Below are positions 3,607 through 54,586 of a stretch of 64,000 bases of DNA, piece by piece. Position numbers and translations under genes: made by a program. Position 1 is the stretch's first letter. Each line of letters starts with the position of its first letter. Source of the stretch: Flavobacterium limnophilum (GTDB taxonomy: Bacteria; Bacteroidota; Bacteroidia; Flavobacteriales; Flavobacteriaceae); the NCBI RefSeq assembly GCF_027111315.2, contig NZ_CP114289.2:1178001-1242000 (forward strand), given 5' to 3'. Under the pieces are notes generated by a model. The model searched no databases and was not told the origin of the DNA. It saw only the letters and a program-made list of their open reading frames with translations.

Positions 3607-3660
3607 ACTCATAACCGATTAACCCCTAACCGATAACCCACAACCGATAACCCAAACCCT

Positions 3661-22582: not shown

Positions 22583-22659
22583 ACCATTAAACAACAAACA
22601 ACAAACAATAAACAATAAACAATAAACAATAAACAACAAACAACAAACATCTTCCCCCT
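22583..22659 (+). repeat. AACAATA-type tandem repeat leader
   Basis: Roughly seven to nine units of AAACAATA/AAACAACA fill the gap between the two polymerase genes and end 12 bases before the dnaE-like ATG. It has no purine-rich Shine-Dalgarno sequence. Confidence 0.7.
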
Positions 22660-27967: not shown

Positions 27968-29059
27968 ATGACAGATAAAACAATAAATTCAGGACCAGAC
28001 GCACAAAACGGATTCGCTTTGCAAAGGAATACTGCTATTTTTTTGTTATTAGAAAACTATTTTAGTAAGTTTCAAAATAAAAAATACTTTGTCTGTCTTG
28101 AACATCACGAAGATTTTTTATTCTGCTTTTTGAATGAAAATGATACAGTATCTTTAATAGAAGCATATCAATCAAAAAAAAAGGCACCCGATATTTGGCG
28201 TTTAAACAATGAATTGTTTGGAATAATAACTAAATTATTAAAAACTGGTACAGAATTAATTCAAGATCAAATTTCTAAATCTTCAGATTACAATCATATA
28301 CTTTACTTCTCTTCTAATCAGACCATACATTTAGAACACAAACCAAAAAAAAATGAGCAATTGCCAACTGTTTCTGTTTCAATAAAAGCTGATAATCCAA
28401 ATTCACTTTTTACAAGCTTACCAAACGAAATTAAAGAAAAATTAAAAACAAACATTACTGAAATTGATTTACACAAGGAGTTAGATAATTTAAGTTTTAT
28501 TTGGATACCTTTTACAACAACTGAAAAAGAACAGGAAAATCAACTTGTAGGTAAAATAGATGAAGTGTTTGAAAATCAGATTTTTGATAAAAGAGCAGCA
28601 ATCGATACTTTAATCAGTTTATTTAGAAAAATTGAAACCACTTATAATAAAGGTAATATTGTAAAACTATTAGATAAAACCAAAAGAGTAAGCAATTCTG
28701 AAGTTGAAAACGCTTTTAATATTTTAACAACAAAAGCCAAATGTTTTGATTATTGGCACAGAAAAAAAGCAGAAGTTTCTTTAAAGTTAAAAATAAGAAT
28801 TATTGAAAAAGAAACATTTGAGTTAGCGTTTGATAGTGCTTTTGATTTATTTAAAAGTTTCAAAGAAGCCGAACATCAAAAGATTTTCAACTTTGTAAAT
28901 AAACAAATTAATAATTTAACTTCTTTTTCAGAAGAAGATTGTGTATTTGAACTTTTAGAGTTATTTAAAAGTTCTGAAAGAACAAAATTTAATGACTTGC
29001 AATTAAAAGCTATACTATTTGCAGCGCTTTTTGAAGTATTATACTTAACAGAAAACTAA
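27968..29059 (+). CDS. DUF4297/Cap4-type nuclease, Lamassu LmuA-like (363 aa)
   Basis: The N-terminus carries the DUF4297 pattern SGPDAQNGFALQRNTAIF, then CLEHHEDFLF and IEAYQSKKK, giving E...E-x-x-Q-x-K of a PD-(D/E)XK-type dsDNA nuclease (residues ~45-72). The C-terminal ~240 residues are helical. DUF4297 domains are the effectors in Cap4 CBASS proteins and in some Lamassu systems. The next gene, 2 bases downstream, is an SMC/Rad50-like ATPase, the Lamassu LmuB-type partner. I infer a two-gene Lamassu-like system; no LmuC-like third gene is visible. Confidence 0.7.
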   Translation: MTDKTINSGPDAQNGFALQRNTAIFLLLENYFSKFQNKKYFVCLEHHEDFLFCFLNENDTVSLIEAYQSKKKAPDIWRLNNELFGIITKLLKTGTELIQDQISKSSDYNHILYFSSNQTIHLEHKPKKNEQLPTVSVSIKADNPNSLFTSLPNEIKEKLKTNITEIDLHKELDNLSFIWIPFTTTEKEQENQLVGKIDEVFENQIFDKRAAIDTLISLFRKIETTYNKGNIVKLLDKTKRVSNSEVENAFNILTTKAKCFDYWHRKKAEVSLKLKIRIIEKETFELAFDSAFDLFKSFKEAEHQKIFNFVNKQINNLTSFSEEDCVFELLELFKSSERTKFNDLQLKAILFAALFEVLYLTEN

Positions 29060-29061
29060 CT

Positions 29062-30780
29062 ATGAAATCTCAAATAATTTATAAAAACTTTTTTATTTTT
29101 TCTGAAAAAAGTAATACAAGCTTTTTTACTACTTTTAGTAGTGATATTAATATTATTCACGGGAAAAATACATCCGGAAAAAGTACAATAATTCAGGCGA
29201 TTCATTATGCTTTTGGAATAAATGACGAAAAACATAAGTTAGCCGAAATTCTATCAGAAAAGGTAATCTTCAGATTAGATTTTCTGATAAAAAAAGAATT
29301 TGTAGAAAATATTACAATAGTTAGAGATGACGATTTTATTTATATTAAAAGAGAAAACCAACCTTTAGAAAAATTTTCGGGTATTATTGGGAATTCATCT
29401 AAAGAACATATTAAATTGAAACATTATTTAGCTGAATTATGTGGATTTAATCTACAATTAGAAACTTCTGGAGAATATAAACTTGCTTCTTTAGAAGCTA
29501 TGTTTTTACCTTATTACGTTGCTCAAGATTATGGATGGGTTTTGGCTTTAAAATCATTTCGTGGCTTAGATTTTTTTAGAAATTTTAAATATGATTATTA
29601 TGATTACTATTTAGGTATTACAAATGAATATGATAGATTAGAAAAACAAAATCTAGAAAAAGAAAAGAAGGATTTTGAAAATCAAATCAAATTTCTAACA
29701 AATATTGAAAAACAAAATGACGAATTAAATCTTTCAAAATTAAAAGATGAATCGTTTATTTCTAAATCAATTGAATATATTGATTCATATAAAAAAAATA
29801 AGGATGAATTAATCCAAACGGAGAAAAAATATATAGTAAAATGTAACGAAGTAACTTTTTATGAAGAGAGATTAAAAATTTTAAATAAAGTAAAAATTTC
29901 TCTTAAAAAAGAAAATCCAATAAAAGACGACTGTCCTACTTGTAAACAAAGTTTACCAAGTTTATTAGAGAACATCTACGAGTATTCGCAAGATGTAAAT
30001 AACACAAATGCAGAAATCGAAAAAATAAAAGTAAAATTTAAAGACTTACAAAGTACTATTAACAGTCTAGAAGAAAAGATATCTATTCAAAAAGAAAAAG
30101 TAACGAAGGATTATTCAATATTAGATAAATACAAAATTGAAGATTTAACTTTTGGTACTTGGTTAGATAACAAAACTAAAGTCAAACTTTCTGAGAATAT
30201 TTTAACTCAAATAGGTGAAACAACAATTAATCTTAATAAAAAAATAAGTGAATTAAAAAAATTCAAAACTGATGATGAAATAAAGAAAGAAAGGAATTCG
30301 AGAGATTTTCAATTCAAAAATTACTTTATAGATTTTTTAAATGAATTGAATGTTAAAAAATTTGATGATGATAAGTACACATTGCTTTACTGGATGGGAA
30401 TTTTTCCAAAACAAGGTGTCGAGCTTTTGAAAACTATGTTAGCTTATTATTTTGCTTTTAATAGAGTAATTGAAGATACAGAATATATACATAGATTACC
30501 GTTTTTATTAGATGCTATTTTCAAAGAAGATATAGATGAAGATAACAGAAAATTGATTCTTAAATTTATTTATAAAAACAAGCCAAAAAATGAACAAATA
30601 ATTTTCTCATTTGCTGAATCAAAGAAAAATCCAAAAACAGCTGAGGAATACAATAGAGAATTAATGAAAAATGAAGCTAAATTAATTTTAACTGATTTGA
30701 AAAATGAAAGGTCAGTTTTAAAACCTCTTACTGGTGACCAAAATGAATATTTAGAAGAAACATTAAAATTAATCGAATAA
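29062..30780 (+). CDS. SMC/Rad50-like ATPase, Lamassu LmuB-like (572 aa)
   Basis: Walker A is HGKNTSGKST (residues ~33-42). Two coiled-coil arms (residues ~190-285 and ~305-400) flank a zinc-hook motif CPTC (~291-294). The C-terminal lobe has RLPFLLDAIFKEDID (~478-492), a Walker B-like region, and IIFSFAESKK after it. This is the architecture of SMC-like defence ATPases that sense DNA ends or replication intermediates and release the nuclease. It is shorter than Rad50 (short coils), as usual for defence versions. Tight spacing with the DUF4297 gene indicates one operon. Confidence 0.75.
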   Translation: MKSQIIYKNFFIFSEKSNTSFFTTFSSDINIIHGKNTSGKSTIIQAIHYAFGINDEKHKLAEILSEKVIFRLDFLIKKEFVENITIVRDDDFIYIKRENQPLEKFSGIIGNSSKEHIKLKHYLAELCGFNLQLETSGEYKLASLEAMFLPYYVAQDYGWVLALKSFRGLDFFRNFKYDYYDYYLGITNEYDRLEKQNLEKEKKDFENQIKFLTNIEKQNDELNLSKLKDESFISKSIEYIDSYKKNKDELIQTEKKYIVKCNEVTFYEERLKILNKVKISLKKENPIKDDCPTCKQSLPSLLENIYEYSQDVNNTNAEIEKIKVKFKDLQSTINSLEEKISIQKEKVTKDYSILDKYKIEDLTFGTWLDNKTKVKLSENILTQIGETTINLNKKISELKKFKTDDEIKKERNSRDFQFKNYFIDFLNELNVKKFDDDKYTLLYWMGIFPKQGVELLKTMLAYYFAFNRVIEDTEYIHRLPFLLDAIFKEDIDEDNRKLILKFIYKNKPKNEQIIFSFAESKKNPKTAEEYNRELMKNEAKLILTDLKNERSVLKPLTGDQNEYLEETLKLIE

Positions 30781-34954: not shown

Positions 34955-35060
34955 TGAATAGTATTTCTAACCTCCAACTTCAAACCTCTAACTTCTAACC
35001 TCCCGCTTCTAACTTCTAACCTCTAACTTCTAACCTCTAACCTCAAACCTCCCACTTCCC
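34955..35060 (+). repeat. CTAACTT/CTAACCT tandem repeat leader
   Basis: About twelve units of a 7-base pyrimidine-rich repeat (CTAACTT, CTAACCT, TCAAACC variants) run directly up to the ATG of the next gene. Confidence 0.75.
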
Positions 35061-41924: not shown

Positions 41925-42848
41925 ATGAATCGAAACTTTTTAAAAGACATCCTTTACGGAGTTGCCGTTGGTGATGCGCTTGGTGTTCCTGTAGAATTTA
42001 AAAGTCGTTATTATTTAAGGCAAAATCCTGTAGACACGATGCAGGGTTTTGGAACCCACGATGTCAAAGCAGGAGTTTGGTCTGATGACAGTTCGTTAAC
42101 CTTTTGTTTAGCCGAAAGCATTAATGAAGGCTTGGATTTACAACAATTGGCAAACAAATTTATCGCCTGGAAAAACGAAAATTATTGGACACCGGAAGGC
42201 GAAGTTTTTGATATCGGCATTGCCACGAGTATAGCTATTGATCGGTTAGCCAAAGGGATGAAACCTGAATTGGCTGGCGGTTTTGAAGAATGGGACAACG
42301 GAAACGGTTCCCTGATGCGTATTTTGCCTTTGGTGCAATACAGCAAAGACAAGTCGATTTCCGAAAGGTTTGAAATCACAAAAGCAGTTTCCTCACTTAC
42401 ACACGGACACATACGTTCGGTGATTGGCTGTTTTTATTATTTGGAATTTGCCAAACAGATAATGGAAGGCAAAAACAAGTTTGAAATTTACGAAAACTTA
42501 AAAACGGAAGTAACTGGATTTTTAAAATCATTGAATGTCAATCCTTCTGAAATTGTAATTTACAGTCGCCTTTTGAACGGTAATATTTATGAATTAGGGG
42601 AAGATGAAATCAAAAGTTCGGGTTATGTGGTTCATACTTTGGAAGCGAGTATTTGGAGTCTATTAACCACTGATAATTATGTCGATGCCGTTCTCAAAGC
42701 TATTAATTTAGGGGAAGACACCGATACCACGGGAGCAGTTACGGGTGGTTTGGCAGGAATGCTCTACGGATTTGAAACCATCCTGAAAGAATGGATTGAG
42801 GTTTTAGCAAAAAAGAATGATATTGACAAACTGATTCCTCAAGACTAA
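41925..42848 (+). CDS. ADP-ribosylglycohydrolase, DraG-like (307 aa)
   Basis: Metal-binding motifs of the ARH/DraG fold are intact: GVAVGDALGVPVEF, VWSDDSSLTFCLAES (W-S-D-D-S), WDNGNGSLMRI and the C-terminal NLGEDTDTTGAVTGGLAG. It removes ADP-ribose from proteins or nucleic acid in the cytoplasm, using two Mg/Mn ions. Its place after small unknown genes suggests a role against an ADP-ribosylating toxin or in a regulatory cycle, but no ADP-ribosyltransferase is recognisable in this window. Confidence 0.88.
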   Translation: MNRNFLKDILYGVAVGDALGVPVEFKSRYYLRQNPVDTMQGFGTHDVKAGVWSDDSSLTFCLAESINEGLDLQQLANKFIAWKNENYWTPEGEVFDIGIATSIAIDRLAKGMKPELAGGFEEWDNGNGSLMRILPLVQYSKDKSISERFEITKAVSSLTHGHIRSVIGCFYYLEFAKQIMEGKNKFEIYENLKTEVTGFLKSLNVNPSEIVIYSRLLNGNIYELGEDEIKSSGYVVHTLEASIWSLLTTDNYVDAVLKAINLGEDTDTTGAVTGGLAGMLYGFETILKEWIEVLAKKNDIDKLIPQD

Positions 42849-42922
42849 AATTAAATATATATAAATAACATCCGTCTTTTTAAAGTTCATTATAACTGAG
42901 TTAAATCAAGTGACTAATTTCA

Positions 42923-43489
42923 ATGCAAACGCTAAAAATCAATCTTCACGGGGAAAGTTGGTCACTGAAAAAATTCGAGTGCAGCGAGGTTGATTTTACA
43001 GAATGTTTGAAAGTGGCTGCTAAAATGAAACTCCCCTTAGTAAAAGCGTTATTAGATCCCTTTTTCTATTATTACCTAAAAATACCTACTGTCCCATCAT
43101 TGGAAAATTTACCAGGCATAAAAGTAAGCGGACTATGGAACTCACCAAAAAACCAAATCGAAATATTATTGGATGGCAAAAAAATCGATAAACTCCAAAT
43201 CAAAGATTTAAACCAGCAACAATTGCTTTTTCCCCTCTATAACGTGAATAAAACCGAAGTCACGGAAGAATACAATCCTGGAATTTATATCGAACAAAAA
43301 GCCATTGGTTTCATTGCCAGCTATGAAATAAAATTAGACCATTTTACTATAGATGATTTGCAATTCAAATTGACACAATTTAACGACAAACTACTTTTGC
43401 AAAAACCAAGCTATCAAAATAAAAAAGTAATCTTCAGAAAAAAGGAAACCCTGCTCATTTACCAAAATAGTTTTGAAATTATAAAATGA
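42923..43489 (+). CDS. unknown protein (188 aa)
   Basis: A soluble protein beginning MQTLKINLHGESWSLKKF, with a helix containing LPLVKALLDPFFYYYLKIP and a basic C-terminus. No domain recognised. It is the last gene before the ~2.1 kb hairpin region. Confidence 0.6.
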   Translation: MQTLKINLHGESWSLKKFECSEVDFTECLKVAAKMKLPLVKALLDPFFYYYLKIPTVPSLENLPGIKVSGLWNSPKNQIEILLDGKKIDKLQIKDLNQQQLLFPLYNVNKTEVTEEYNPGIYIEQKAIGFIASYEIKLDHFTIDDLQFKLTQFNDKLLLQKPSYQNKKVIFRKKETLLIYQNSFEIIK

Positions 43490-43697
43490 TTACTGGAAAG
43501 ATTCCCATTAACTCATTCAACTGCACAAAAATTGCTCCTAGTCCAAGTATTCCTAGCATCATTGTCATCCTGAGCGCAGACGAAGGATTTGTTTGCTTCA
43601 TTTCACTAATTACGTTTTCAATAGAGTAAACATTTTTTGTCGTTCGCGGTGAAAAGGACGTTTCCCGCTTCGGTTGCCACTCCTGGCCAACGCTCCT

Positions 43698-43766
43698 AAA
43701 AAAATTTCTGTCACGGTTTTTGGAACAAAAACACGTACACTTCGTGACTCGCGCCAGAAATTTTTT
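43698..43766. repeat. hairpin H1
   Basis: AAAAAATTTCTG (43699-43710) pairs with CAGAAATTTTTT (43755-43766); inside, TCACG (43711-43715) pairs with CGTGA (43743-43747). Confidence 0.6.
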
Positions 43767-43773
43767 CCCCAAA

Positions 43774-43872
43774 GCTGTTTTACATAATTGAGTATTATAA
43801 TTCATCACAAAGCGTTTATATTGTTTTTTTGGTTTTTGCGACGAAGTTATAATATCATTTATGTAAAACAGC
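43774..43872. repeat. hairpin H2
   Basis: GCTGTTTTACATAA (43774-43787) is the exact complement of 43859-43872, and TATTATAA (43793-43800) of TTATAATA (43847-43854). Confidence 0.7.
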
Positions 43873-43889
43873 CGCACCCCAACGCGCCG

Positions 43890-43991
43890 GTGGTTTGCTC
43901 CAGGACAACTTCTTGAGGGGCTGTAAAGACATTGGTCATCCCGTGCGCAGTCGAGGGACAGCCCCTCAAGAAGCTGCCCTTCACAAACCAC
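43890..43991. repeat. hairpin H3
   Basis: GTGGTTTG (43890-43897) pairs with CAAACCAC (43984-43991), and CTTCTTGAGGGGCTG (43909-43923) with its perfect complement at 43959-43973. Confidence 0.75.
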
Positions 43992-44097
43992 TACAATACC
44001 TCACGAAGAATTTATATCTTTTAATTAACGATTCCGTATCGCTGATAACTTATGATGGTTTTTAGCAACTTGGTATTGAAATCGGAAGTCTTTGCAT

Positions 44098-44177
44098 TGA
44101 TTTTGTGAGTAGAAAAATGGCTTTTAAGTCTAGTGGATTTGCCTAGGGAAAAAGCCATTTTTCTACACACAAAATCA
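44098..44177. repeat. hairpin H4 (28-base arms)
   Basis: 44098-44125 and 44150-44177 are complementary over 28 positions with one mismatch. The outermost part, TTTTGTG and CACAAAA, also flanks the smaller hairpins of the tandem units that follow. Confidence 0.8.
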
Positions 44178-44181
44178 AAAA

Positions 44182-45175
44182 GCCAGCAAGAGTATTGTTT
44201 TTTTATTTGCCACAAAATACCTAGTAATTGCTTTTCCGGAAAAGCAGTTGCCATATCGTTTTTATAAGACAATTTTCTGCAAACTGACACTGTACACTGA
44301 ACACTATTTCTGGCACCAGCTTTTCCACAAAAGCAATCAGAATTACCCCAGTAAGCAAATAAAAAAACAATACACTTGCCTGCGCTGCTGCCCCATCGCA
44401 CTAGGTATTATTATGCATTGTTTTTGTGAGTGCAGACCATTACTTACAACGTTGCTTCCTGAATAATACAATTCCAATAAAGTAATGGCCTGCACACACA
44501 AAATCAAAAAGCCAGCAAGAGTATCGTTTTTTATTTGCCACAAAATAAGTAGTAATTGCTTTTCCGGAAAAGCAGTTGCCATATCGTTTTATAAGACAAT
44601 TTTCTGCAAACTGACACTGTACACTGTACACTGAACACTATTTCTGGCACCAGCTTTTCCACAAAAGCAATCAGGAACACCCCAGTCAGCAAATAAAAAA
44701 ACAATACACTTGCCTGCGCTGCTGCCTCATCGCACTAGGTATTATTATGCATTGTTTTTGTGAGTGCAGACCATTACTTACAACGTTGCTTCCTGAATAA
44801 TACAATTCCAATAAAGTAATGGCCTGCACACACAAAATTAAAAAGCCAGCAAGAGTATCGTTTTTTATTTGCCACAAAATAAGTAGTAATTGCTTTTCCG
44901 GAAAAGCAGTTGCCATATCGTTTTATAAGACAATTTTCTGCAAACTGACACTGTACACTGTACACTGAACACTATTTCTGGCACCAGCTTTTCCACAAAA
45001 GCAATCAGGAACACCCCAGTCAGCAAATAAAAAAACAATACACTTGCCTGCGCTACTGCCTCATCGCACTAGGTATTATTATGCATTGTTTTTGTGAGTG
45101 CAGACCATTACTTACAACGTTGATTCCTGAATAATACAATTCCAATAAAGTAATGGTCTGCACACACAAAATCAA
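44182..45175. repeat. tandem array of three ~330-bp palindromic units
   Basis: GCCAGCAAGAGTAT recurs at 44182, 44511 and 44845 (periods 329 and 334), and the units between are almost identical. Each unit contains two hairpins. The large one in unit 1 has GTATTGTTTTTTTATTTGC (44192-44210) with its exact complement at 44355-44373, extended outward by GCAAG/CTTGC, with internal GCTTTTCCGGAAAAGC. The small one has GTGCAG-CCATTACTT (from 44430) against the complement ending 44496, flanked by TTTTGTG and CACAAAA. A fourth unit is cut off after 45175. No reading frame is conserved with coding character. Confidence 0.8.
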
Positions 45176-45188
45176 GTCCAGTAAAGAG

Positions 45189-45257
45189 TATGGATTTTTA
45201 AAACATAAAAAAAATTGGAATGGCGGTTAATGTGTTTTTCTGTTTTAAAAATCCATA
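45189..45257. repeat. hairpin H5
   Basis: TATGGATTTTTAAAACA (45189-45205) is the exact 17-base complement of 45241-45257. Confidence 0.75.
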
Positions 45258-45348
45258 CCCTTTCCAAGAAAATCCCCCCTCTTAAGAAAACATTTTTCGA
45301 TTGGTTACTAATGAAAAAACCATGGTTAATAGGAAAATAAAAAAATAA

Positions 45349-45531
45349 AAAAAAAGAAAGTAAAGTTAAGCTCCAGTTTCAAGAAAGTAAAGTTCAGGCC
45401 TCCGGTTTTTTGAAAATTTTTTTCCGAAAAGAAATATTGTCCTCCTAATCAACATCCGGTCGGAAAAAATTTTTCAAAAAAAACTTGACTTTCTTGAAAC
45501 TTCCACTTAGGAGATGACTTTCTTTTTTTTC
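45349..45531. repeat. hairpin H6, ~180 bases
   Basis: Concentric stems: an A-run plus GAAAGT near 45350-45362 with ACTTTC plus T-run near 45517-45530; AGTTTCAAGAAAGT (45375-45388) with ACTTTCTTGAAACT (45488-45501); and 45406-45427 with 45460-45481, 22 positions with one mismatch. Confidence 0.75.
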
Positions 45532-45641
45532 CTTTTTTTTCTTTTAAAAAATTTTATGTGGCGAAGCGTAGCGAGGCACATTGGCTAGTTCACCAGAAAA
45601 TAAATGAAAATTGAAAAGCTAATCAATTTAAATCCGAAGCC

Positions 45642-46064
45642 ATGACCAATTTTATCATCAAGACCCATCGAAAAGACACACAGTACACCAAACCCCATTT
45701 ATTCATCCTTAACAAAGGGTTGAACGCCGGAAAGCCCCAGGACGAGCCTTTCGCAAACAGCTTTGTCATCATTTTTTCTGAGGAAAAGGACCGCGATAAC
45801 ATTTTCCTGGTAGCATACAGCTTGTGGAAAACAAAATTTTGGCACCCACACCTTTATGGTTCCGTGATTCCATTTTTGCGCCTCCCAGACTTCAAAAAAG
45901 AGTTCAACCCCCAATCCAGTTTGATGATGGTCGAACACGAGCAGCACGTCAAAAATGTGGAAGCGCTCAAATTGTTGGAAAAAAAAGAAAAACAGTATAA
46001 AGAGGATATGATGCTTATAAATGACATCCGTAAGACCATATTGTATCGCTATTGCAAGAAATAA
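45642..46064 (+). CDS. DUF6943-like protein (140 aa)
   Basis: FIIKTHRKDTQYTKPHLFIL, NKGLNAGKPQDEPFANSFVI, SLWKTKFWHPHLYGSVIPFL and a helical C-terminus match a small family that I know as DUF6943 from Bacteroidota mobile and prophage-like regions. Function unknown. It directly follows the hairpin region and is followed by a 59-residue protein that I also recall as its usual neighbour; the pair may be a mobile-element module linked to the hairpins. Confidence 0.65.
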   Translation: MTNFIIKTHRKDTQYTKPHLFILNKGLNAGKPQDEPFANSFVIIFSEEKDRDNIFLVAYSLWKTKFWHPHLYGSVIPFLRLPDFKKEFNPQSSLMMVEHEQHVKNVEALKLLEKKEKQYKEDMMLINDIRKTILYRYCKK

Positions 46065-46091
46065 TTATGACCATCTTTAATACTCACTACC

Positions 46092-46271
46092 ATGGAACTA
46101 TTCATTCTATACCAAACCGACATTTGGAAAACCAAAATCTCGAGAGTCTTTTACGGAATATTTGACAGCAGGCCAAAAACAAAGGGCAGCGCCAAATACA
46201 ACGGATTATATACTGCTAATACAAAAGTGGTCATCGAAAAAGTAACCTTGAACATTTTCGAAGAAATCTAA
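46092..46271 (+). CDS. small partner protein (59 aa)
   Basis: ATG 46092 opens a 59-residue frame beginning MELFILYQTDIWKTKISRVF and ending KVVIEKVTLNIFEEI, stop at 46269-46271. It lies 27 bases after the DUF6943-like gene in the same direction. Regular strand-helix pattern and coherent composition suggest a real protein. Function unknown. Confidence 0.6.
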   Translation: MELFILYQTDIWKTKISRVFYGIFDSRPKTKGSAKYNGLYTANTKVVIEKVTLNIFEEI

Positions 46272-46418
46272 AACATAAGATTTATATTATGTATATTTGA
46301 AAATAATTAGTCCTGGCATTTATCAGACAAAGCCATTCTATTTTGGGTAGATTGGTTCCAATTTATGGCACCTAAAACCGAATTATACACAACTAGCCCT
46401 AAGCACACGTAATAGATT

Positions 46419-47093
46419 ATGAACAATTTTACAGAGAATATAATTAGCGGAGTGATTGGTGGACTTGTGGTTTATTTTTTTCAAGTAATTAGAGAAATAA
46501 TCAAAGAGAAAAAACAGAAGATTGAAAGTAACAAGGTTGGAAACCAAGTTAGCAAATATCTTGACGAAAAGTTTCTACTTAATTACGAACCTGGAGGATT
46601 ATCAATAGAAAAAATCATACAAGACTTTGGTGAACCAACAGAAAAATATAAATATCCATATGACTCAGATGATAATGAATATCTAGTTATTTATAAATAC
46701 AAATTTGTTAATGCAGTTGTCCTTTTTTCTACAATCGAAAATAACTCATCAATAGTTTCGATTACAGTAAACTCAAGTAAAAATAAAAAACATCCTGTTC
46801 TTTGCCCTTATACTTTTGATGAAACAGAAAAACACTTTGGCAATGCCAGAATTACATCAGAAATTATTGAAAATGAAAGATGTTTTGAAAAAGAAAGTTA
46901 TACTAATTGGGCATATTCAGCAATTCAGGCAAAGTTTTTTCAAAGGGAGATTAAACATTTTACTTTTACATATTTTGTTTGCGATATAGGAATTGAAAAC
47001 ATTGATGAAATGAAAGGTAAAGTTATTGACCAAATTTGTATCAGCACGGTAATGGAAGTTTTTCCAATTATTAACTTTTATGAAATGGTCTAA
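46419..47093 (+). CDS. unknown membrane-anchored protein (224 aa)
   Basis: An N-terminal transmembrane helix (residues ~7-24, IISGVIGGLVVYFFQVI) is followed by a basic stretch and a cytoplasmic or periplasmic domain with YLDEKFLLNYEPGGLSIEKI and a DFGEPTEKYKYPY motif. The layout is like single-pass sensor or effector-anchor proteins found in defence loci. It has its own terminator right after the stop codon, so it is not in the ABC-3C operon downstream. Confidence 0.55.
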   Translation: MNNFTENIISGVIGGLVVYFFQVIREIIKEKKQKIESNKVGNQVSKYLDEKFLLNYEPGGLSIEKIIQDFGEPTEKYKYPYDSDDNEYLVIYKYKFVNAVVLFSTIENNSSIVSITVNSSKNKKHPVLCPYTFDETEKHFGNARITSEIIENERCFEKESYTNWAYSAIQAKFFQREIKHFTFTYFVCDIGIENIDEMKGKVIDQICISTVMEVFPIINFYEMV

Positions 47094-47114
47094 CCGCATA
47101 TAAATGCGGTTTTA
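47093..47114 (+). terminator. intrinsic terminator
   Basis: ACCGCAT (47093-47099) pairs with ATGCGGT (47104-47110) and is followed by TTTAT; it starts at the last base of the upstream gene's stop codon. Confidence 0.65.
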
Positions 47115-47251
47115 TGCAATAGCTAGTTTATTTTTTATTGGCCGGAAAGTAATAATAGGTCAATTCTATATCTTTACAACTAAACTTAATGGCGTCGCCA
47201 CTGCGTAAAGTCGCGTCACGTTAATTCAATAAAAGAAAATATAATTAATAA

Positions 47252-48190
47252 ATGAGCCAAAAATACTATTCAAAACTTCGCTTTTCACTTAATGCCATAA
47301 AATCTGAAGGACAGAAATATGAAGATTTGTTCAATGACGTTATGATTGCCTCAAGGACTGGCTTTCGGAGAGTTAAGGCTTATGGTAATATTGGGGATAG
47401 AAAAAATGATGGCTTTGTTCCAGCTACTGGTGTCTACTTTCAAGTATTTGCACCAGAAGATATCAACAATGAACGAACTGTGGTTTCCGCAGTAAGTAAA
47501 CTAGAAGAAGACTTTACCAAGTTATTAGAGCATTGGAATGAATTTACACCTATAAAAGAATTTTATTTTGTGTTAAATGACAAACAAAAAGGCTCTCCTC
47601 CACCAGTAGAACAGAAAATGGCGAAACTTTGTAAGCTCCATCCTGATATTTCTTTTGGGACTTATACTATGGATGATTTGATTTCAGAATTTATGGAATT
47701 AGATATAGAAAAACAAGAATCCATAATTGGTTTTATTCCTTCGCCAAATAAATTGCAAACAATTTCAGTTTCAGCGTTATCTACCACTATTGAACATTTG
47801 ATATCTCTCAAAGAAGTAAAGGATAAACCCAATGACAATTTTGATTTAGAGGAATTCAATAACAAAATTGTTTTTAACTTTTTAGATAATAGAATCGCAC
47901 AAATATTAGAGAAAGCAGAAACACAAACATATATTATAGACGAATATTTTACTCGCAATCAGAACAAACGCTTAGGTGAAATTATCCGAAATTCTTTAAA
48001 TTATATTTACGAAACAGAAAAAGAAAAATATGGAGGTGTAGTAACTGTCTTAAATTCAGCTATTATTTTCTATAACATTCTTGATATATGTGCCGTTGAA
48101 AAGGGAGATGAAGCTATCAATTCATCACTTGTTTTGATGTCATTCTTTTTTACAAGCTGTGATATTTTTGAAAAACCGACTAAAGATTAA
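47252..48190 (+). CDS. ABC-three-component system effector-like protein (312 aa)
   Basis: The N-terminal ~120 residues resemble the restriction-nuclease-like part of ABC-3C first components: YEDLFNDVMIASRTGFRRVK, GDRKNDGFVPATGVYFQVFA (a D...Q-x-F/Y-x-A/K pattern), KEFYFVLNDK. The middle has a low-complexity linker and the C-terminal part is helical. In ABC-3C systems the first component is the toxic effector, with the middle component and SMC-like ATPase as regulators. It begins the operon at 47252. Confidence 0.7.
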   Translation: MSQKYYSKLRFSLNAIKSEGQKYEDLFNDVMIASRTGFRRVKAYGNIGDRKNDGFVPATGVYFQVFAPEDINNERTVVSAVSKLEEDFTKLLEHWNEFTPIKEFYFVLNDKQKGSPPPVEQKMAKLCKLHPDISFGTYTMDDLISEFMELDIEKQESIIGFIPSPNKLQTISVSALSTTIEHLISLKEVKDKPNDNFDLEEFNNKIVFNFLDNRIAQILEKAETQTYIIDEYFTRNQNKRLGEIIRNSLNYIYETEKEKYGGVVTVLNSAIIFYNILDICAVEKGDEAINSSLVLMSFFFTSCDIFEKPTKD

Positions 48191-48191
48191 A

Positions 48192-48440
48192 ATGATTCTT
48201 CCATCAAAACATATTAGAAATTGTGAAAGCCTAATTGGTTTGGGTAGTATACTCTTAAATAAATTAGAAAGTCCAAAAACTATCGATGAGCTTTGGATTG
48301 ATTTTGAAGGGATTAACAACACAAAAGACTGTCCAACTTTACATTCTTTTGACAATGTAATTCTAGCATTAGATCTATTATTTGTATTAGGCAAAATTCA
48401 ATTCAATGAAAAACAAATTATAAAAAATGAAACTAATTGA
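48192..48440 (+). CDS. ABC-3C middle component, MC6-like (82 aa)
   Basis: Begins MILPSKHIRNCESLIGLGSI, then LLNKLESPKTIDELWIDFEG and SFDNVILALDLLFVLGKIQF: the pattern of ABC-three-component middle components (L-P-x-K-H-I ... S-F-D ... L-A-L-D-x-L-x-x-L-G-x-I). It probably links the effector to the ATPase. ATG 48192 is one base after the effector's stop codon; the frame's upstream extension lies inside that gene. It overlaps the ATPase gene by 14 bases. Confidence 0.8.
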   Translation: MILPSKHIRNCESLIGLGSILLNKLESPKTIDELWIDFEGINNTKDCPTLHSFDNVILALDLLFVLGKIQFNEKQIIKNETN

Positions 48441-50151
48441 GCTTGGAGCTAATAAACCCACATTTAGAACTATATACTTCAATCCGAGTGGTATCACTTT
48501 GATTATTGGTAAACGTGCAGAAGAAAAAGGAAATAATACTTATAATGGCGTTGGTAAGTCTTTCGCTTTATATCTCGTACAATTTTGTCTAGCGAGTAAA
48601 TCAAATCTTAAGCTTTCTAAAAAGCTACCTACTTGGGAATTTTATCTTAAATTTTCAATTGAGGGTAAAGATTTTATTGTAAAAAGAAGTACCGATAATC
48701 AAAGTAAAGTTTCTTTAAATGGTGAAGAAAAAAGTCTCTCAGAATTTTCAGAGTTTATGTTAATGTCAATATTTACTATTCCAGACGGTGTCACTAAAGC
48801 TTCATTCAGATCTTTAATTTCAAGATTCTTACGAACAAGAAAGCAAGAATATTTTAAGTTTGACAACTTCGTTTATAAAGAACAAGACGAAAGAGCTCTT
48901 CTTAGTAATTCTATCCTTTTGGGCCTTAATTCTCTTTTAGTAGAAAAAAAATTTTTATTGAAAGAAGAAATTAATAAAATATCAGATTTTCGGAAAGCTA
49001 TTCAATCTGATGAGACCTTCAATTCCTTTTTTGGTGCAGACAATGATATTGATATTGTAATTAAAGAATTAGAAGAGAGTATTCAAAAACTAGAAATTAA
49101 AATTTCGCAATTTGAGATAGCTGAGGACTATTCCAAAATTGAAGAACAATCAAATTTATTATCATATCAACTTAAAGAAAGCAATAATCAACTTTCGTTA
49201 TTAAGGGAAACATTAAAGAACATTATAAAATCTTTGCATTTAAGATCAGATATGTCAGAATCAATCTTTGATTCATTCATTGCGAGTCTTGAAAGTGAAT
49301 TAAATATTAAAGTTTCAGAAAGGGTTTCAGAAGTAAAGGCTTTCCATCAAAACTTAACGACTGGCAGAACCCATAGACTTAATAAAGAAAAGACTAATAT
49401 TCTTGAACAAATTGATGAAGAAGAAAAAAAACAAAAACTTATTGCAAGTAAATATGATACAAGTTTAAAATTTCTTAATAAATATGGTGCTTTAGATGAT
49501 TACGTTTCTGTTAATCAAAAACTAAATGAAGATAAAAATGCTTTGTCAAAAATAACGACTTCCATACAACTAATCAATGCATACAAAAAGCGTGAGAGTG
49601 AAATTAAACTAGTTATGGCAGAAGATAATCTTGCCACTGAACAGTATTTGCAAGTAGAGAAGCAAGGACATTTAGCTATTTTAATGGATTCATACCGAGC
49701 GCTAACAGGGAGTTTTTATGACGATAAAAAAGGAGGCATTTCTGTAGTAAATAATGATGGTCAAAACAAATTACGCTACAAGATAGATGTTAGAATTCAA
49801 GATGATGCCTCAGATGGAATTAATGAGGTAAGAATATTTTGCTTTGATTTATTATTACTTCTGAGCCAGATAAATCATAATGTTAAATTTATTTTTCACG
49901 ATAGCAGGTTGTTTGCTAATATGGATACACATCAAAGATTTTCCGCATTAAACATTGCTTCTGAGATAGGAAGTAAAGATTTTCAATACATCGCATCAAT
50001 GAATCAAGACACACTAGACATATTGAAAGAAGAAAGAAGTGCAGAAGAATATAAAGAAATTATTGAAGAGAATATTGTTCTAGAACTTAATGGTGACAAT
50101 CCAGAAGGTAGATTGTTAGGAATCCATTTAGACTTAGATTATTTAGAATGA
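48427..50151 (+). CDS. ABC-3C SMC-like ATPase, DUF2326-type (574 aa)
   Basis: The P-loop is unusual: ITLIIGKRAEEKGNNTYNGVGKS (spaced insert before NGVGKS, residues ~22-43), as in DUF2326/ABC-3C ATPases. A coiled-coil spans ~200-420 (IEEQSNLLSYQLKESNNQL and following). The C-terminal DUF2326 lobe has DGINEVRIFCFDLLLLL and a Walker B-like VKFIFHDSRLFANMD. This ATPase is thought to sense an invader and license the effector. The overlap with the middle-component gene shows a single operon. Confidence 0.8.
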   Translation: MKLIELGANKPTFRTIYFNPSGITLIIGKRAEEKGNNTYNGVGKSFALYLVQFCLASKSNLKLSKKLPTWEFYLKFSIEGKDFIVKRSTDNQSKVSLNGEEKSLSEFSEFMLMSIFTIPDGVTKASFRSLISRFLRTRKQEYFKFDNFVYKEQDERALLSNSILLGLNSLLVEKKFLLKEEINKISDFRKAIQSDETFNSFFGADNDIDIVIKELEESIQKLEIKISQFEIAEDYSKIEEQSNLLSYQLKESNNQLSLLRETLKNIIKSLHLRSDMSESIFDSFIASLESELNIKVSERVSEVKAFHQNLTTGRTHRLNKEKTNILEQIDEEEKKQKLIASKYDTSLKFLNKYGALDDYVSVNQKLNEDKNALSKITTSIQLINAYKKRESEIKLVMAEDNLATEQYLQVEKQGHLAILMDSYRALTGSFYDDKKGGISVVNNDGQNKLRYKIDVRIQDDASDGINEVRIFCFDLLLLLSQINHNVKFIFHDSRLFANMDTHQRFSALNIASEIGSKDFQYIASMNQDTLDILKEERSAEEYKEIIEENIVLELNGDNPEGRLLGIHLDLDYLE

Positions 50152-50236
50152 AAAAAGCGTGTAACAAAACCATTAAGCAACGGACGATACTTTCAAATCG
50201 CTTAGCCCGCTGCCTATAGCTCCAACGGTTAAAAAT

Positions 50237-50266
50237 AAAAAGCCAGGTCTCTCGACTTGGCTTTCT
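50237..50266. terminator. bidirectional terminator
   Basis: AAAGCCAGGTC and GACTTGGCTTT form an 11-bp stem (one G-T pair) around TCTC, with A-rich sequence to the left and T-rich to the right. It separates the ABC-3C operon from the convergent leftward cassette. Confidence 0.7.
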
Positions 50267-50304
50267 TATTATCTAATCCAAAGGTCACCACAACTAGAAT
50301 TAGA

Positions 50305-50481
50305 CTATTTTTTGTGCTTCTTGATGAGGTATTTGAGTAGCAATGATATTACAAAACTGACAATCGCTCCAAGAGCAGCTAATATAATCGTCTTTAAAAC
50401 ATCTTCCGAATGCAAATTCGGCAAAACACTCAAAAATGTACCTCCGGCTGTACCCATCAGGGTGTGGTTACCCGTCGTCAT
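50305..50481 (-). CDS. small membrane protein (58 aa)
   Basis: ATG complement at 50479-50481 to TAG at 50305-50307. The product begins MTTGNHTLMGTAGGTFLSVL, followed by one strong transmembrane helix (residues ~30-52) and a KKHKK end. It overlaps the end of the 85-residue protein gene by 14 bases, so it is the last gene of a leftward operon. Possibly a holin-like or anchor protein. Confidence 0.6.
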   Translation of the reverse strand: MTTGNHTLMGTAGGTFLSVLPNLHSEDVLKTIILAALGAIVSFVISLLLKYLIKKHKK

Positions 50482-50725
50482 CCACGCTTGGTGGCAAAAC
50501 CGCTTCCCCTGTGGTCAGCTGGCTTACCGCTGAGACCACTCCGCCCGCAACAGCCAAATAACCACCAACTGTAGTCAGCACAACTGGCAAAGCCACCGGA
50601 GCTGCCAGGATCGTTCCACCAATGGCAGCCATAGCCAATCCAATATTTCGAAGCACTTTAAAAAATTTAGGCGTTGGAGCTTTCACTCGTTTAATAATAT
50701 TCATATTTTCTCGTTTTGCTGTCAT
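50468..50725 (-). CDS. small hydrophobic protein (85 aa)
   Basis: ATG at 50725 overlaps the DUF5675 stop codon as ATGA, indicating translational coupling. A basic N-terminus (KRVKAPTPKFFKVLRN) is followed by a ~45-residue hydrophobic region rich in A, V and G (AAPVALPVVLTTVGGYLAVA), enough for two transmembrane helices. I recall similar proteins next to DUF5675 genes. Function unknown; holin-like is one possibility. Confidence 0.6.
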   Translation of the reverse strand: MTAKRENMNIIKRVKAPTPKFFKVLRNIGLAMAAIGGTILAAPVALPVVLTTVGGYLAVAGGVVSAVSQLTTGEAVLPPSVDDDG

Positions 50726-51138
50726 CCTTCCAAAGTCAGGAATCCAGATTGAACAATCAACTCTACACTTTCTTTCTGATCCAAAACTTTATAAACCAAA
50801 TTTTTCAACTTGGTAAAAGCTTTTCGAGACATCAGACCCAATCCAGGTCCAGAAAGTTTCGTTACTGGAGCAATACAACCATTCAATTCTCGTTGGGCAT
50901 TATTGGCTGGATGAAGCAGAATCAAACTTCTGTTTTTTACATTTACTATTTCCAAATGCCATTGGAACTTCTTGCTGTACCGCTTTCTAATAAAATATTT
51001 CCCCTCCGGAATGCAGGAAACCTTCGTTTCGTTGTTCTTCCAAGGCAATTCAATAGTATGGCAGATTAATTTGCCCTCGCATTCGAGTTTACCATTGCAT
51101 CCTTCAGGGAAATAAGTTCTAGTTAAAAATAGTGTCAT
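50722..51138 (-). CDS. DUF5675-family protein (138 aa)
   Basis: Full-length match to DUF5675: LTRTYFPEGCNGKLECEGKL, CHTIELPWKNNETKVSCIPE, SLILLHPANNAQRELNGCIA, PVTKLSGPGLGLMSRKAF. The family occurs in prophage-like cassettes and has been suggested to be phage- or cell-wall-related, without proof. Second gene of the leftward operon, coupled to the next by an ATGA overlap. Confidence 0.8.
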   Translation of the reverse strand: MTLFLTRTYFPEGCNGKLECEGKLICHTIELPWKNNETKVSCIPEGKYFIRKRYSKKFQWHLEIVNVKNRSLILLHPANNAQRELNGCIAPVTKLSGPGLGLMSRKAFTKLKNLVYKVLDQKESVELIVQSGFLTLEG

Positions 51139-51181
51139 ATTCTAACTATTTAATTTGTCAGACTGAGCCCGTCGAAGTCCA

Positions 51182-51940
51182 TTAGACACCGCCATCCACT
51201 TTCACCAATGCCAATGGGTTGTAAGCGCCATTTTTCAATGGGTACATTTGTCCATTCACTTCTTGGTAAAACTCCACACCTAAAGCCAAAAACAAAGGTT
51301 TTGTGCTTGCAGCTGTCACTGCATTCACTTGGCTGATGGCAACTGTTGCCACCGCGTCCCATGGAAGGATGGCAGTTTCTGAATGTGCTTCAACGAAAGT
51401 TTCAGCTTCGAAATCAATTTCAGCTCCAGCCGAAATGATTTTAAAATGGGTTGTTCCACTAGGAGCAGCAATCATGTTTGCCGGAACAAACGGATCAATG
51501 TCAACAGTGATTTCACCTGCAGCACGGTCAATAGTTCCAACGAATGGAGCAAATAAACTGGTACCCAGTTTTCCTCTGATGTTGAATTCAAATCCGGTAA
51601 GCAATTCCGCCTCGCCATCAATCACGTTTCGTAATCCTCTAACGCTAATAACATCAGCTTGAATTACTTTAACCATTTGTTGAGTCAAGCGGCTCACCAT
51701 TCTTCCATCGGCAGAATTCAAGAGCAATGCTCTCAAAGCCGTTCTCAAAATCTTGCCGGCTACCCCGGCTCGCCCAAATTCAGACCCATTCTCGCGGGTT
51801 CTCTGAAACGCAGGATCATTTTTGATTCTGCTGGCGTCGATGCCTCCTTTTTCACGAGCCAAATGCCCGTCCTGGGTTTTGTAAAAGGTAATATCCCCGA
51901 TAGTACCTTTCAACTTAATTATGCCTTTTTGCCTTGCCAT
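51182..51940 (-). CDS. unknown protein with phage-structural look (252 aa)
   Basis: Begins MARQKGIIKLKGTIGDITFY, then AREKGGIDASRIKNDPAFQR and ENGSEFGRAGVAGKI. The C-terminal ~150 residues are beta-rich and Ala/Val/Gly-rich. I recall proteins of this kind upstream of DUF5675 genes in Flavobacterium but know no function; the composition fits a particle or tail component, which is an inference. First gene of the leftward four-gene cassette; direct-repeat motifs lie upstream. Confidence 0.6.
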   Translation of the reverse strand: MARQKGIIKLKGTIGDITFYKTQDGHLAREKGGIDASRIKNDPAFQRTRENGSEFGRAGVAGKILRTALRALLLNSADGRMVSRLTQQMVKVIQADVISVRGLRNVIDGEAELLTGFEFNIRGKLGTSLFAPFVGTIDRAAGEITVDIDPFVPANMIAAPSGTTHFKIISAGAEIDFEAETFVEAHSETAILPWDAVATVAISQVNAVTAASTKPLFLALGVEFYQEVNGQMYPLKNGAYNPLALVKVDGGV

Positions 51941-52077
51941 AATTCCTAATATTTAAATTAATACTTGGTTTGAAATTCCCTCAATCATCATCCGTTGCAA
52001 CATCTTTCAATTGATTTCGAGAACAAATTTTAGCTTATTTAGCAGAATAAAAAAGCAAGCACAGTTCCATATGTCCG

Positions 52078-52113
52078 AAAACGACATAAATGGCTTAAAA
52101 CGACATAAATGCC
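52078..52113 (-). promoter_or_regulatory. two direct repeats upstream of the leftward cassette
   Basis: AAAACGACATAAATG occurs at ~52078-52091 and ~52097-52111 with a period of about 20 bases (two turns of helix), 140-170 bases upstream of the 51940 start. A regulator binding in tandem on one face is plausible. Confidence 0.4.
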
Positions 52114-52114
52114 C

Positions 52115-52140
52115 ATAAAAAAACACCCCAGAGAGGTGTA
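52115..52140 (-). terminator. leftward-reading terminator-like hairpin
   Basis: Read on the minus strand, ACACC and GGTGT form a stem followed by seven T. It could insulate the cassette from leftward read-through. Confidence 0.4.
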
Positions 52141-52306
52141 ACTTGCAGCAATAAATAGTAACTTAGAAAATCTTAATTTTGTAAAGCCATTTTAGGATTT
52201 ACAAAATAATCAGCAAAGATATTTAAGGATTGAAAAGATTAAAATATAGACTTTGCACCTAGCACTTTGATGCTAGTCAAAGCCTAGTCAAAGGTATAGA
52301 TAGTGT

Positions 52307-52510
52307 ATGAAAAATGAAAAACAGAGGGTCTGCATTTATCCAAAGGACATACAGCGCATAACAGGCAAGAGTTATCGTCAAAGTACCAGAATAATGCAAA
52401 AAGTAAAAAACGACCTCAATAAGCCCGAAAATGAATTCTTAACGATAGAAGAATTCTGTTTGTACACAGGAATAAAATATGAACAAGTAGCTCATTTGAT
52501 TTTTGGTTAA
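52307..52510 (+). CDS. small HTH-like protein (67 aa)
   Basis: Contains VCIYPKDIQRITGKSYRQST and FLTIEEFCLYTGIKYEQVAH, a pattern of small helical proteins that I have seen in Bacteroidota accessory regions; it may be a one-domain DNA-binding regulator. The upstream region (52248-52305) has several TAGTCAAAG repeats, possible binding sites. Divergent from the DUF5675 cassette; may regulate it. Confidence 0.6.
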   Translation: MKNEKQRVCIYPKDIQRITGKSYRQSTRIMQKVKNDLNKPENEFLTIEEFCLYTGIKYEQVAHLIFG

Positions 52511-52760
52511 AATTAGAAAATACTTGTTCATATTTTAAACCTATTAAATCCTTAAATCTTAATTAAACTAGTTCATTTTTTAGTCAAGTTTCTTTCTTAA
52601 TCAATTAATTATCAGTATATTTAATCATTGAATTTAGATCATTTTTTTTATCCATATCAATAGGAGTCACTTGAGGAGTCACTTGTAATAAATGCTTCGT
52701 AAAACCTTGTTTTAGTGCTAATTACAAAAACAAAAAAATCCCTCTTTCTCCGCAGAATTA

Positions 52761-52800
52761 AAACCCTAACGATTGACTTTCAATTAGTTAGGGTTTTTTT
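52761..52800 (+). terminator. strong intrinsic terminator
   Basis: AAACCCTAAC (52761-52770) pairs with GTTAGGGTTT (52787-52796) and is followed by T's. Confidence 0.75.
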
Positions 52801-52982: not shown

Positions 52983-53080
52983 TATATGCTTTTACATATA
53001 GATATATTTTATTTACAATAAACTATATGCTTTTGCATATAATTTACTATATTTGCTTAAAATCAATGCAAAAGCATATA
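52983..53080 (+). promoter_or_regulatory. three HipB operators around a TATATTTG promoter
   Basis: TATATGCTTTTACATATA (52983-53000), TATATGCTTTTGCATATA (53024-53041) and the inverted ATGCAAAAGCATATA (53066-53080) are copies of one palindromic site. The -7 box TATATTTG (53048-53055) lies between the second and third. HipB-type autorepression is the obvious reading. Confidence 0.75.
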
Positions 53081-53083
53081 GCA

Positions 53084-53302
53084 ATGAAGACACTAGCCGA
53101 TTTTGTAAAAGATAAAAGAAACGAAGTAAAGCTCACACAGGAAGCCTTTGCGGAACGTGCTGGAGTAGCTCTTACAGTGATTCGAAAAATAGAACAGGGA
53201 AAAGAAAACCTCAACCTCGAAAAAGTAAACCAAGTGCTCAAAATGTTTGGGCATACCTTGGCTCCAGTCAATGCAAGAGAATTATTCAAAAATGACGATT
53301 AA
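53084..53302 (+). CDS. hipB: HipB-like antitoxin (72 aa)
   Basis: A compact XRE helix-turn-helix: TLADFVKDKRNEVKLTQEAF, AERAGVALTVIRKIEQGKEN, LNLEKVNQVLKMFGHTL. This is the usual HipB DNA-binding antitoxin fold. ATG 53084 is taken because the upstream frame from 53027 overlaps operators and promoter. It is the first gene of an operon with hipS and hipT, each a few bases apart. Confidence 0.85.
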   Translation: MKTLADFVKDKRNEVKLTQEAFAERAGVALTVIRKIEQGKENLNLEKVNQVLKMFGHTLAPVNARELFKNDD

Positions 53303-53307
53303 AGAAA

Positions 53308-53640
53308 ATGAGAAAAGCAGCCGTATATTATAAAGAATTTCTGGCGGGCATCCTCACGGAAACGGACGACGGGGAATACACCTTCGAATACGATGAAAAA
53401 TATGTGGTGGAACATCCCAAGGAAGGCATCAGCCTGACAATGCCGGTACGATTAAAAAGCTACACCGACAAACGATTGTTTCCTTTTTTCGAAGGTTTGA
53501 TCCCGGAAGGATGGCTATTGGACATTGCGTCCAAAAACTGGAAAATAAATCCTGGCGACCGAATGGGCTTGCTTCTGGCCTGTTGCCAGAATTGCATCGG
53601 AGCAGTTAGTGTACAATCAATACAAAACGAAAATGAGTAA
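53308..53640 (+). CDS. hipS: HipS-like protein, HipA N-terminal subdomain (110 aa)
   Basis: The sequence matches the HipA N-terminal subdomain 1 as a stand-alone protein: KAAVYYKEFLAGILTE, SLTMPVRLKSYTDKRLFPFF, GLIPEGWLLDIASKNWKI and DRMGLLLACCQNCIGAVSV. In the tripartite HipBST system this part is encoded separately and acts as antitoxin against the HipT kinase. It overlaps hipT by 8 bases, as in known hipBST operons. Confidence 0.85.
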   Translation: MRKAAVYYKEFLAGILTETDDGEYTFEYDEKYVVEHPKEGISLTMPVRLKSYTDKRLFPFFEGLIPEGWLLDIASKNWKINPGDRMGLLLACCQNCIGAVSVQSIQNENE

Positions 53641-54586
53641 GTGTCTATATTGCTATGAACCATTGGAGGACAATGGTACTGGTGATTTCCACGAGCAGTG
53701 CAGCTTGGAGTTTTTTGGCACCAAACAACCACCAGTATTCGAACATTCACTAAAACAAATGGCGGAATTGGCCAAAAACGTGGTGGAACGAAGTGTGGCG
53801 GTTCCTGGCGTGCAACCCAAACTATCCCTGTCTATCGTTAATGACTCTCTGCAGGACGGAAACAAAGGACGTCTTACCGTTGTAGGAGCCTTGGGAGGAA
53901 ATTACATTTTTAAACCACCATCCGACCAATACCCTGAAATGCCCGAAAATGAACACCTGACGATGCGAATCGCGGAAGCATTCGGAATCAATACGGTAAA
54001 ATCAAGCTTGATCCGATTGCAGTCGGGCGAACTGTCTTATATCACCAAACGCATCGACCGAACGGATACCGGAGAGAAAATCCATATGCTCGACATGTTC
54101 CAGATCACGGAAGCCTTCGATAAATACAAAAGCTCGATGGAAAAGGTGGGCAAAGCCCTAAACGAGTATTCGGACAACACCTTGTTGGACAAATTGTATT
54201 TTCTGGAATTGGGCATTTTCAGTTTCCTCACCGGGAACAACGACATGCACCTGAAGAACTTTTCGATGATCCATTCCGGCGACAGTTGGACATTGGCTCC
54301 AGCCTATGATCTATTGAATGTGGCCATAGTAAACCCCGACGACACCGAGGAACTGGCCCTAACACTGGAGGGAAAAAAGAGAAAACTACAATGGGAAAAT
54401 TTCGAAAAGCTGGGCATCAACCTTGGACTTAACGGAAAACAAATAAAAAGCATCGTCAAACGCTTCCAGAAAAACAAACCCGTCGCTTTCCAATGGATCA
54501 ATAATTCATTCCTGTCCGAGGAATACAAGGAAAAATACAAGACCCTGATGGAAGAAAGATACCGCGCCTTGTTCCACCGGGAATGA
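53633..54586 (+). CDS. hipT: HipT-like serine/threonine kinase toxin (317 aa)
   Basis: HipA-type kinase core without subdomain 1: a short zinc-binding start (CLYCYEPLEDNGTGDFHEQC), GVQPKLSLS (the P-loop/autophosphorylation region), GGNYIFKPP, NEHLTMRIAEAFGI, GNNDMHLKNFSM (catalytic H-L-K-N loop) and APAYDLLNVAI (metal-binding D). HipT kinases phosphorylate tryptophanyl-tRNA synthetase in the characterised system and stop growth; here the target is unproven. ATG 53633 overlaps the hipS stop. Confidence 0.85.
   Translation: MSKCLYCYEPLEDNGTGDFHEQCSLEFFGTKQPPVFEHSLKQMAELAKNVVERSVAVPGVQPKLSLSIVNDSLQDGNKGRLTVVGALGGNYIFKPPSDQYPEMPENEHLTMRIAEAFGINTVKSSLIRLQSGELSYITKRIDRTDTGEKIHMLDMFQITEAFDKYKSSMEKVGKALNEYSDNTLLDKLYFLELGIFSFLTGNNDMHLKNFSMIHSGDSWTLAPAYDLLNVAIVNPDDTEELALTLEGKKRKLQWENFEKLGINLGLNGKQIKSIVKRFQKNKPVAFQWINNSFLSEEYKEKYKTLMEERYRALFHRE

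Follow-up and report, generated by a model that had tools for sequence, protein, structure and literature searches.

The interval 43698-45531 raises the question of what a chain of long hairpins without a gene represents in a bacterial genome. It lies in the window, i.e., the whole 64-kb stretch of DNA that was analyzed (G000:C1:1178001-1242000 of a 4.5-Mb genome). The initial annotation had left three readings side by side: nested fold-back transposable elements, a hairpin-based recombination or packaging region, and a large structured RNA. Our analysis indicates that the chain is most probably a giant minus-strand RNA of a recurring Flavobacterium element, lying mostly head to head with a DUF6943 gene and possibly acting as the scaffold of a ribonucleoprotein.

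Extent and layout of the hairpin chain

The annotated chain of at least eight long hairpins was recovered by an inverted-repeat scan. Eight inverted repeats with a score of at least 14 and arms of 14 to 29 nt were detected in 43698-45531, compared with none in each of 60 dinucleotide shuffles. They span 43774-43872, 43902-43980, 44097-44178, 44418-44507, 44756-44837, 45086-45175, 45183-45263, and 45406-45481, and account for 8 of the 11 non-overlapping repeats of this score in the whole window. A large foldback was found in addition at 44186-44379. The three tandem units that had been described form an array at 44165-45175, each 334 nt long, with 96% matches. Equally, TTTTGTG/CACAAAA stem bases are common to several hairpins with differing arms, as had been pointed out, and they recur in relatives. 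The absence of a gene was borne out as well. Reading frames within the interval are short, and no position carries an open reading frame (ORF) of at least 60 amino acids (aa) in more than 4 of 14 copies of the region. A coding explanation was rejected accordingly. The annotated boundaries hold for the hairpin chain but not for the unit to which it belongs, since a purine/pyrimidine clamp extends the latter to about 45544 and the whole is part of a larger element. The putative RNA and its parts are as follows (all on the minus strand):

About 45560 (5') to 43690 (3'): predicted giant structured RNA (covariation, wobble bias, and fold z score; ends placed by conservation)
45334-45544: 5' domain, helices 1 to 4, a purine-rich/pyrimidine-rich clamp around a long hairpin
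45183-45263: helix 6 hairpin with stem base AAAGAGTATGG (inverted repeat, covariation)
45086-45175: helix 7-type hairpin, the copy closest to the 5' end (inverted repeat, relatives)
44165-45175: 334-nt RNA module, three times in tandem, each comprising one hairpin and a large foldback that resembles helices 9 and 11
44097-44178: helix 12 hairpin with base TTGATTTTGTG (inverted repeat, relatives, covariation)
43889-43992: helices 16 and 17, a long stem plus outer GTGGTTTG/CAAACCAC (sequence, inverted-repeat scan, covariation)
43774-43872: helices 18 and 19, included in the 14-sequence set of covariance model R1
43697-43766: hairpin at the 3' terminus, followed by eye to resemble a terminator with its U tract, helix 20 of the covariation model

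Pairing is maintained among relatives

When 44090-45180 served as a DNA query, 15 of 60 genomes gave a match at an E value of ≤0.001, its own genome counted. Besides the latter, matches below 1e-30 were obtained in G010, G013, G014, G026, and G031, all of the same genus. Relatives repeat the hairpins in a similar order, and their arm letters differ yet still pair. Forty loci were chosen manually among the DUF6943 places listed, with preference for good matches and long contigs; as several share a genome or are nearly identical, locus counts are not independent. The covariation alignment comprised 14 of 19 copies, as L072, L086, L100, L028, and L078 were left out to fit the column limit. Its consensus contains 235 pairs in 20 helices, including a long-range one that joins columns 615-641 with 788-814. 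The proportion of paired cells was 97.5% (of 3,258), compared with 90.6 ± 0.3% in shuffles, and 71 pairs were changed on both sides, compared with 39.7 ± 3.3. The covariation score of 0.264 fell to 0.135 when shuffled and to 0.05 to 0.07 when the partners were slid. Further pair types are less telling, being reached by 39 of 500 shuffles. A long multi-helix structure backed by covariation, as is characteristic of large ornate RNAs, was thus found in these 14 copies under both controls. Helices 7 and 12 have a common TTG.TTTTGTG-type base in several copies, whereas their distal arms differ and only the pairing is kept. The earlier suggestion that pairing is maintained is consequently upheld.

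These comparisons argue firmly that a single large structured minus-strand molecule includes the hairpins as its helices. Its length is about 1.2 to 1.3 kb among the Flavobacterium relatives aligned and about 1.9 kb in the window. One module, present as a single copy in the relatives compared for it, is triplicated in the window copy. RNA hairpins are also duplicated in tandem in L033 and L074, and modular growth is therefore not limited to the window copy. A third type, the L075 group, was folded from ten Flavobacterium copies and yielded 182 pairs, of which 36 covary, with 151 GU and 17 AC combinations; its fold appears less well supported by these sequences than that of the main Flavobacterium type.

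The minus strand is the structured one

DNA complementarity alone would make A.C and G.T mismatches equally frequent. Across 51 loci, non-Watson-Crick cells on the plus strand comprised 139 A.C but only 6 G.T; the remaining mismatches were CT (28), TT (27), AA (26), CC (24), AG (9), and GG (1). The same bias was evident in 11 copies (57 versus 1) and in the window copy alone (8 versus 0). An excess of A.C on the plus strand equals G.U wobbles on the minus strand, which points to the latter as the structured one. Twenty-nine of the 51 loci, those of the long-hairpin type, were folded with RNAalifold. The minus strand gave 274 pairs, 141 of them covarying, at an energy of -387, and the plus strand gave 246 pairs, 118 covarying, at -327. 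When the minus strand of the window was folded as two halves, z scores of -11.9 and -23.1 were obtained, and none of 20 shuffles was as stable in either case. The plus strand of the first half folds 56 kcal/mol more weakly than the minus strand with an equally extreme z score, and for this reason our strand assignment is based on the wobble bias and not on z. Taken with the compensatory changes and the conserved hairpin order, the bias favors the large structured RNA among the readings first proposed.

The molecule is probably an RNA transcribed from a unit of its own, which would end at the terminator-like hairpin. In that hairpin (43697-43766), 11 of 16 pairs of helix 20 are changed on both sides; its other direction is also T-rich. 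A simple scan listed 5 terminator-like sites, compared with 2.2 ± 1.3 in shuffles, and the 3' hairpin is not among them, the scan admitting loops of 3 to 8 nt only. Promoter-like sites were as frequent as in shuffles by a simple scan (6 versus 6.4). No TAnnTTTG box was seen close to the presumed RNA start; 27 such sites lie 150 to 349 nt upstream of the DUF6943 domain start, within the predicted RNA.

The RNA region belongs to a recurring element

Homology with relatives assigns about 43505-46278 and 50237-52769 of the window to the element, which is composed as follows:

43505-43560, no strand: conserved motif, putative left end of the element (homology to most compared relatives starts at about 43505)
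45642-46064, plus: DUF6943 protein of 140 aa, oriented divergently from the RNA (Pfam E value, 1.4e-53)
46279-50236, plus: cargo insert with ORFs 46419-47093, 47252-48190, and 48427-50151
50305-50481, minus: small membrane-type protein by eye, 58 aa
50468-50725, minus: small membrane-type protein by eye, 85 aa
50722-51138, minus: DUF5675 protein, 138 aa (Pfam E value, 8.6e-33)
51182-51940, minus: P252, a conserved 252-aa protein that recurs in copies of the element
52307-52510, plus: HTH-like protein by eye, 67 aa (weak PHROG matches, one excisionase-like, E value 0.023)

By sequence comparison, many Flavobacterium genomes harbor the element of which the RNA region is part, and this region mostly lies head to head with DUF6943. 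In L068 and L114, the distance between the left-end motif and DUF6943 exceeds that of most copies by more than 1 kb. P252 is present in 52 of 54 distinct places and distant (33 to 35% identity) in L024-type copies. Relatives of it are encoded by 550 of the 594 pattern matches listed in GTDB genomes. Its structural identity (C2 domains and other PDB matches) was not used, as the model was of low confidence (mean pLDDT, 63.9). Recurrence is incomplete for the small membrane-type proteins, DUF5675, and the HTH-like protein, and some of the gaps stem from short contigs or stretches; L024 has a DUF5675 protein by Pfam that was missed by BLAST.

A single-query BLAST search detected a tyrosine recombinase downstream of DUF6943 in 16 of 54 distinct places; many of the stretches end before the site. 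The same search found none in the window copy, which may be immobile. Pfam integrase domains are present in the L106 recombinase. L105 and L106 are two contigs of G156, the second of 32.6 kb, and at least 11.8 kb around the element are alike at 99.4%. A tRNA-Tyr gene lies about 0.3 kb from the recombinase in four closely related copies. No convincing direct repeats were seen at the element ends. Neither P252 nor DUF6943 had a relative in phage records or viral contigs in single-protein searches, of which the viral-contig search reaches close relatives only, and no DUF6943 relative was found on plasmids.

The 4-kb cargo of the window is absent between matching flanks in the compared relatives. 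It matches PDC-M68B (E value, 4.3e-78), and its middle ORF (47252-48190) has weak matches to LmuA (1.6e-4) and PDC-M68A (2.2e-4). In 15 of 52 distinct places (17 of 59 rows), more than 700 bp separate DUF6943 from the membrane proteins; L107 to L113 duplicate places of other loci, here as in the survey of 54 places. Ten cargo ORFs of other copies were scanned with Pfam, revealing TIR, CAP12-type TIR, REase-ARP, PcfJ (twice), trypsin-like, TonB C-terminal, and endonuclease matches; two of the ten also have weak PADLOC matches.

Several features elsewhere in the window were recorded as separate observations. Two genes at 27968-30780 match Lamassu LmuA and LmuB (E values, 5e-131 and 1e-225). An HTH gene adjoins a HipA_C gene at 53027-54586, and TATGCTTTTGCATA-type palindromes by this pair, at 52983-53081, are perhaps an operator. 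Tandem repeats with a 7-bp period occur at 2582-2614, 3605-3659, 22589-22649, and 34966-35051.

Linkage to DUF6943 and distribution

The covariance model R1 represents one RNA domain and was built from 14 sequences, all from DUF6943-adjacent copies; the window sequence 43774-43872 scores 120.7 bits (E value, 4.7e-26) by construction, as it belongs to the model. Forty-five of the 52 strongest R1 matches (E value, ≤8.2e-13) lie 902 to 1,889 bp from a divergent DUF6943 gene, the DUF6943 places being those listed for the genus plus those of a later search. Without the 11 sequences that had built the model, the count is 34 of 41. Among the seven strong matches without a close DUF6943 gene, three are too near a contig end to tell and two have the gene at 5.0 and 7.5 kb. 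No DUF6943 gene was found near the remaining two, one of which is in a genome without any. R1 matches were obtained in 45 of 150 genomes of the genus and 12 of 198 of the class, and DUF6943 in 101 of 299 (1 to 5 matches each) and 29 of 395 (21 of 196 genera), respectively, with the own genome counted throughout. A profile search retrieved 4,016 DUF6943 proteins at an E value of ≤0.001 from a database clustered at 90%. Weaker R1 matches also occur in other genomes without DUF6943, that of L235 about 1.4 kb from a P252 relative. Such matches may be related elements or look-alike palindromes. In L234 and L236 to L240, R1 matches were observed near paired recombinase-like genes and not near any DUF6943 gene.

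Five copies from other genera, two of them nearly identical, share a multibranched fold of 339 pairs, 63 of which are changed on both sides; these figures, obtained without a shuffle control, refer to five of the six L216-group copies, L217 having been dropped. Some copies of other genera gave no elaborate fold among 27 chosen loci with six shuffles per locus. Both the Flavobacterium and the L216-group types pair a purine-rich 5' strand with a U-rich one and have an ACATAATG/CATTATGT-type helix near the 3' end. In addition, the Flavobacterium-built R1 matches G418 (E value, 9.7e-12) and G484 (3.6e-7), genomes of the L216 group, at 755 and 963 bp from divergent DUF6943 genes. We infer that the two types may form one RNA family.

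The DUF6943 protein and a proposed role for the RNA

The predicted fold of DUF6943 is closest to target-recognition domains, with Z scores at the background level stated for the tool. Nine of the 13 top structure-comparison rows are restriction or DNA-methyltransferase chains by title, again at Z scores that may be background. The model may resemble type I S subunits in having a recognition-like domain followed by a long helix. Sequence comparison gave no support for membership in an S-subunit family: none of the 15 families matched by any of 38 DUF6943 members (Pfam E value ≤10, HMMER filters) is an S-subunit family, and the sole PDB match of the profile is myosin (E value, 0.39). Pfam revealed no nuclease domain, and DUF6943 was not mentioned in the literature searched.

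We propose, with less certainty than the RNA itself, that the RNA would scaffold a ribonucleoprotein in which DUF6943 docks at the repeated conserved stem bases. The triplicated module would then add DUF6943 sites. Such a complex might serve the upkeep of the element or the defense-like cargo that it often carries. A more far-reaching proposal is a new class of giant RNA-protein system, borne by a widespread family of Bacteroidia mobile elements whose cargo is defense-like, in which a scaffold RNA of 1.2 to 1.9 kb and several DUF6943 copies would make up a DNA-recognition or anti-restriction machine or a GOLLD/ROOL-like RNA cage. We regard this as speculative and rather doubtful; within it, DUF6943 may be related to restriction specificity subunits, at half their size.

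Alternative explanations

The minus strand could instead act as structured single-stranded DNA, be it a transfer or replication origin or a recombination or packaging substrate. G-T wobbles are tolerated in single-stranded DNA too, and the strand bias is hence compatible with such a role. A tyrosine recombinase accompanies some copies, and two of ten scanned cargo ORFs are PcfJ-like, a family known from a conjugative plasmid. However, we noticed neither a relaxase nor a replication gene in our scans of the core genes, and the multibranched architecture and the terminator-like 3' end resemble a transcript more, which makes this explanation improbable. Nested or clustered fold-back transposons (MITEs), as first considered, would fit inverted repeats with common ends and tandem 334-nt units. 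They are hardly credible given that the hairpins keep their order within one unit in relatives, that compensatory changes occur, and that the own genome matches 44090-45180 at the same site only (E value, ≤0.001).

If the region were several terminators in a row, or else a structured antisense or leader that regulates DUF6943, no function of the whole molecule would be required; the terminator-like 3' hairpin and the divergent orientation relative to DUF6943 agree with it. Twenty conserved helices, one of them long-range, exceed what termination needs, and we consider this very unlikely. Conserved stem bases with variable arms, together with a recombinase in some copies, also recall integron-like attC hairpins recognized by a site-specific recombinase, but no gene cassettes were seen between the hairpins and the cargo lies beside the RNA, so that we give this idea almost no weight. 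A giant minus-strand RNA remains our preferred reading.

Comparison with known RNAs

To our knowledge, few bacterial RNAs of such size and complexity are known. For the one described here, a candidate protein partner, an element, and many hosts are at hand, which opens the role of a giant ornate RNA to experimental testing. A search of 42800-46500 against Rfam (E value, ≤1) gave 33 matches, none at the gathering score; the 31 that are miRNA families were taken as chance on long hairpins, below the cutoffs. The GOLLD, ROOL, OLE, and HEARO models had no match at the gathering score in the window or in 12 relative loci, where two tRNAs and one Flavo-1 reached it. Flavo-1 (RF01705) is a candidate structured RNA of Bacteroidetes whose function is also not known (PMC2864571, PMC9723704). 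Its model has 76 positions, unlike the giant RNA. In another genus, the match (L216, 2561-2633, minus strand) falls on the 3' edge of the giant RNA region, and Flavo-1 was not among the matches of the window region or of the other 11 loci. The portions consulted of an F. psychrophilum transcriptome paper (PMC9723704) and of a paper on 104 candidates (PMC2864571) include Flavo-1 and nothing resembling the giant RNA. No title or abstract start describing such an RNA was found in the literature searched, which covers few subscription journals.

Closer parallels are offered by a further source (PMC12286853). There, GOLLD, ROOL, and OLE are bacterial or phage RNAs of poorly understood function that, like the window RNA, are very large, elaborately paired, and known first from covariation. 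HEARO RNA with IsrB is a large RNA complexed with a DNA-acting protein, as proposed here, although HEARO measures 343 nt (PMC12286853) and DUF6943 is without a Pfam nuclease domain. In contrast to GOLLD, ROOL, and OLE, as far as that source describes them, the RNA of about 1.2 to 1.9 kb lies beside DUF6943 in an element of Bacteroidia and, in the window, carries a triplicated module.
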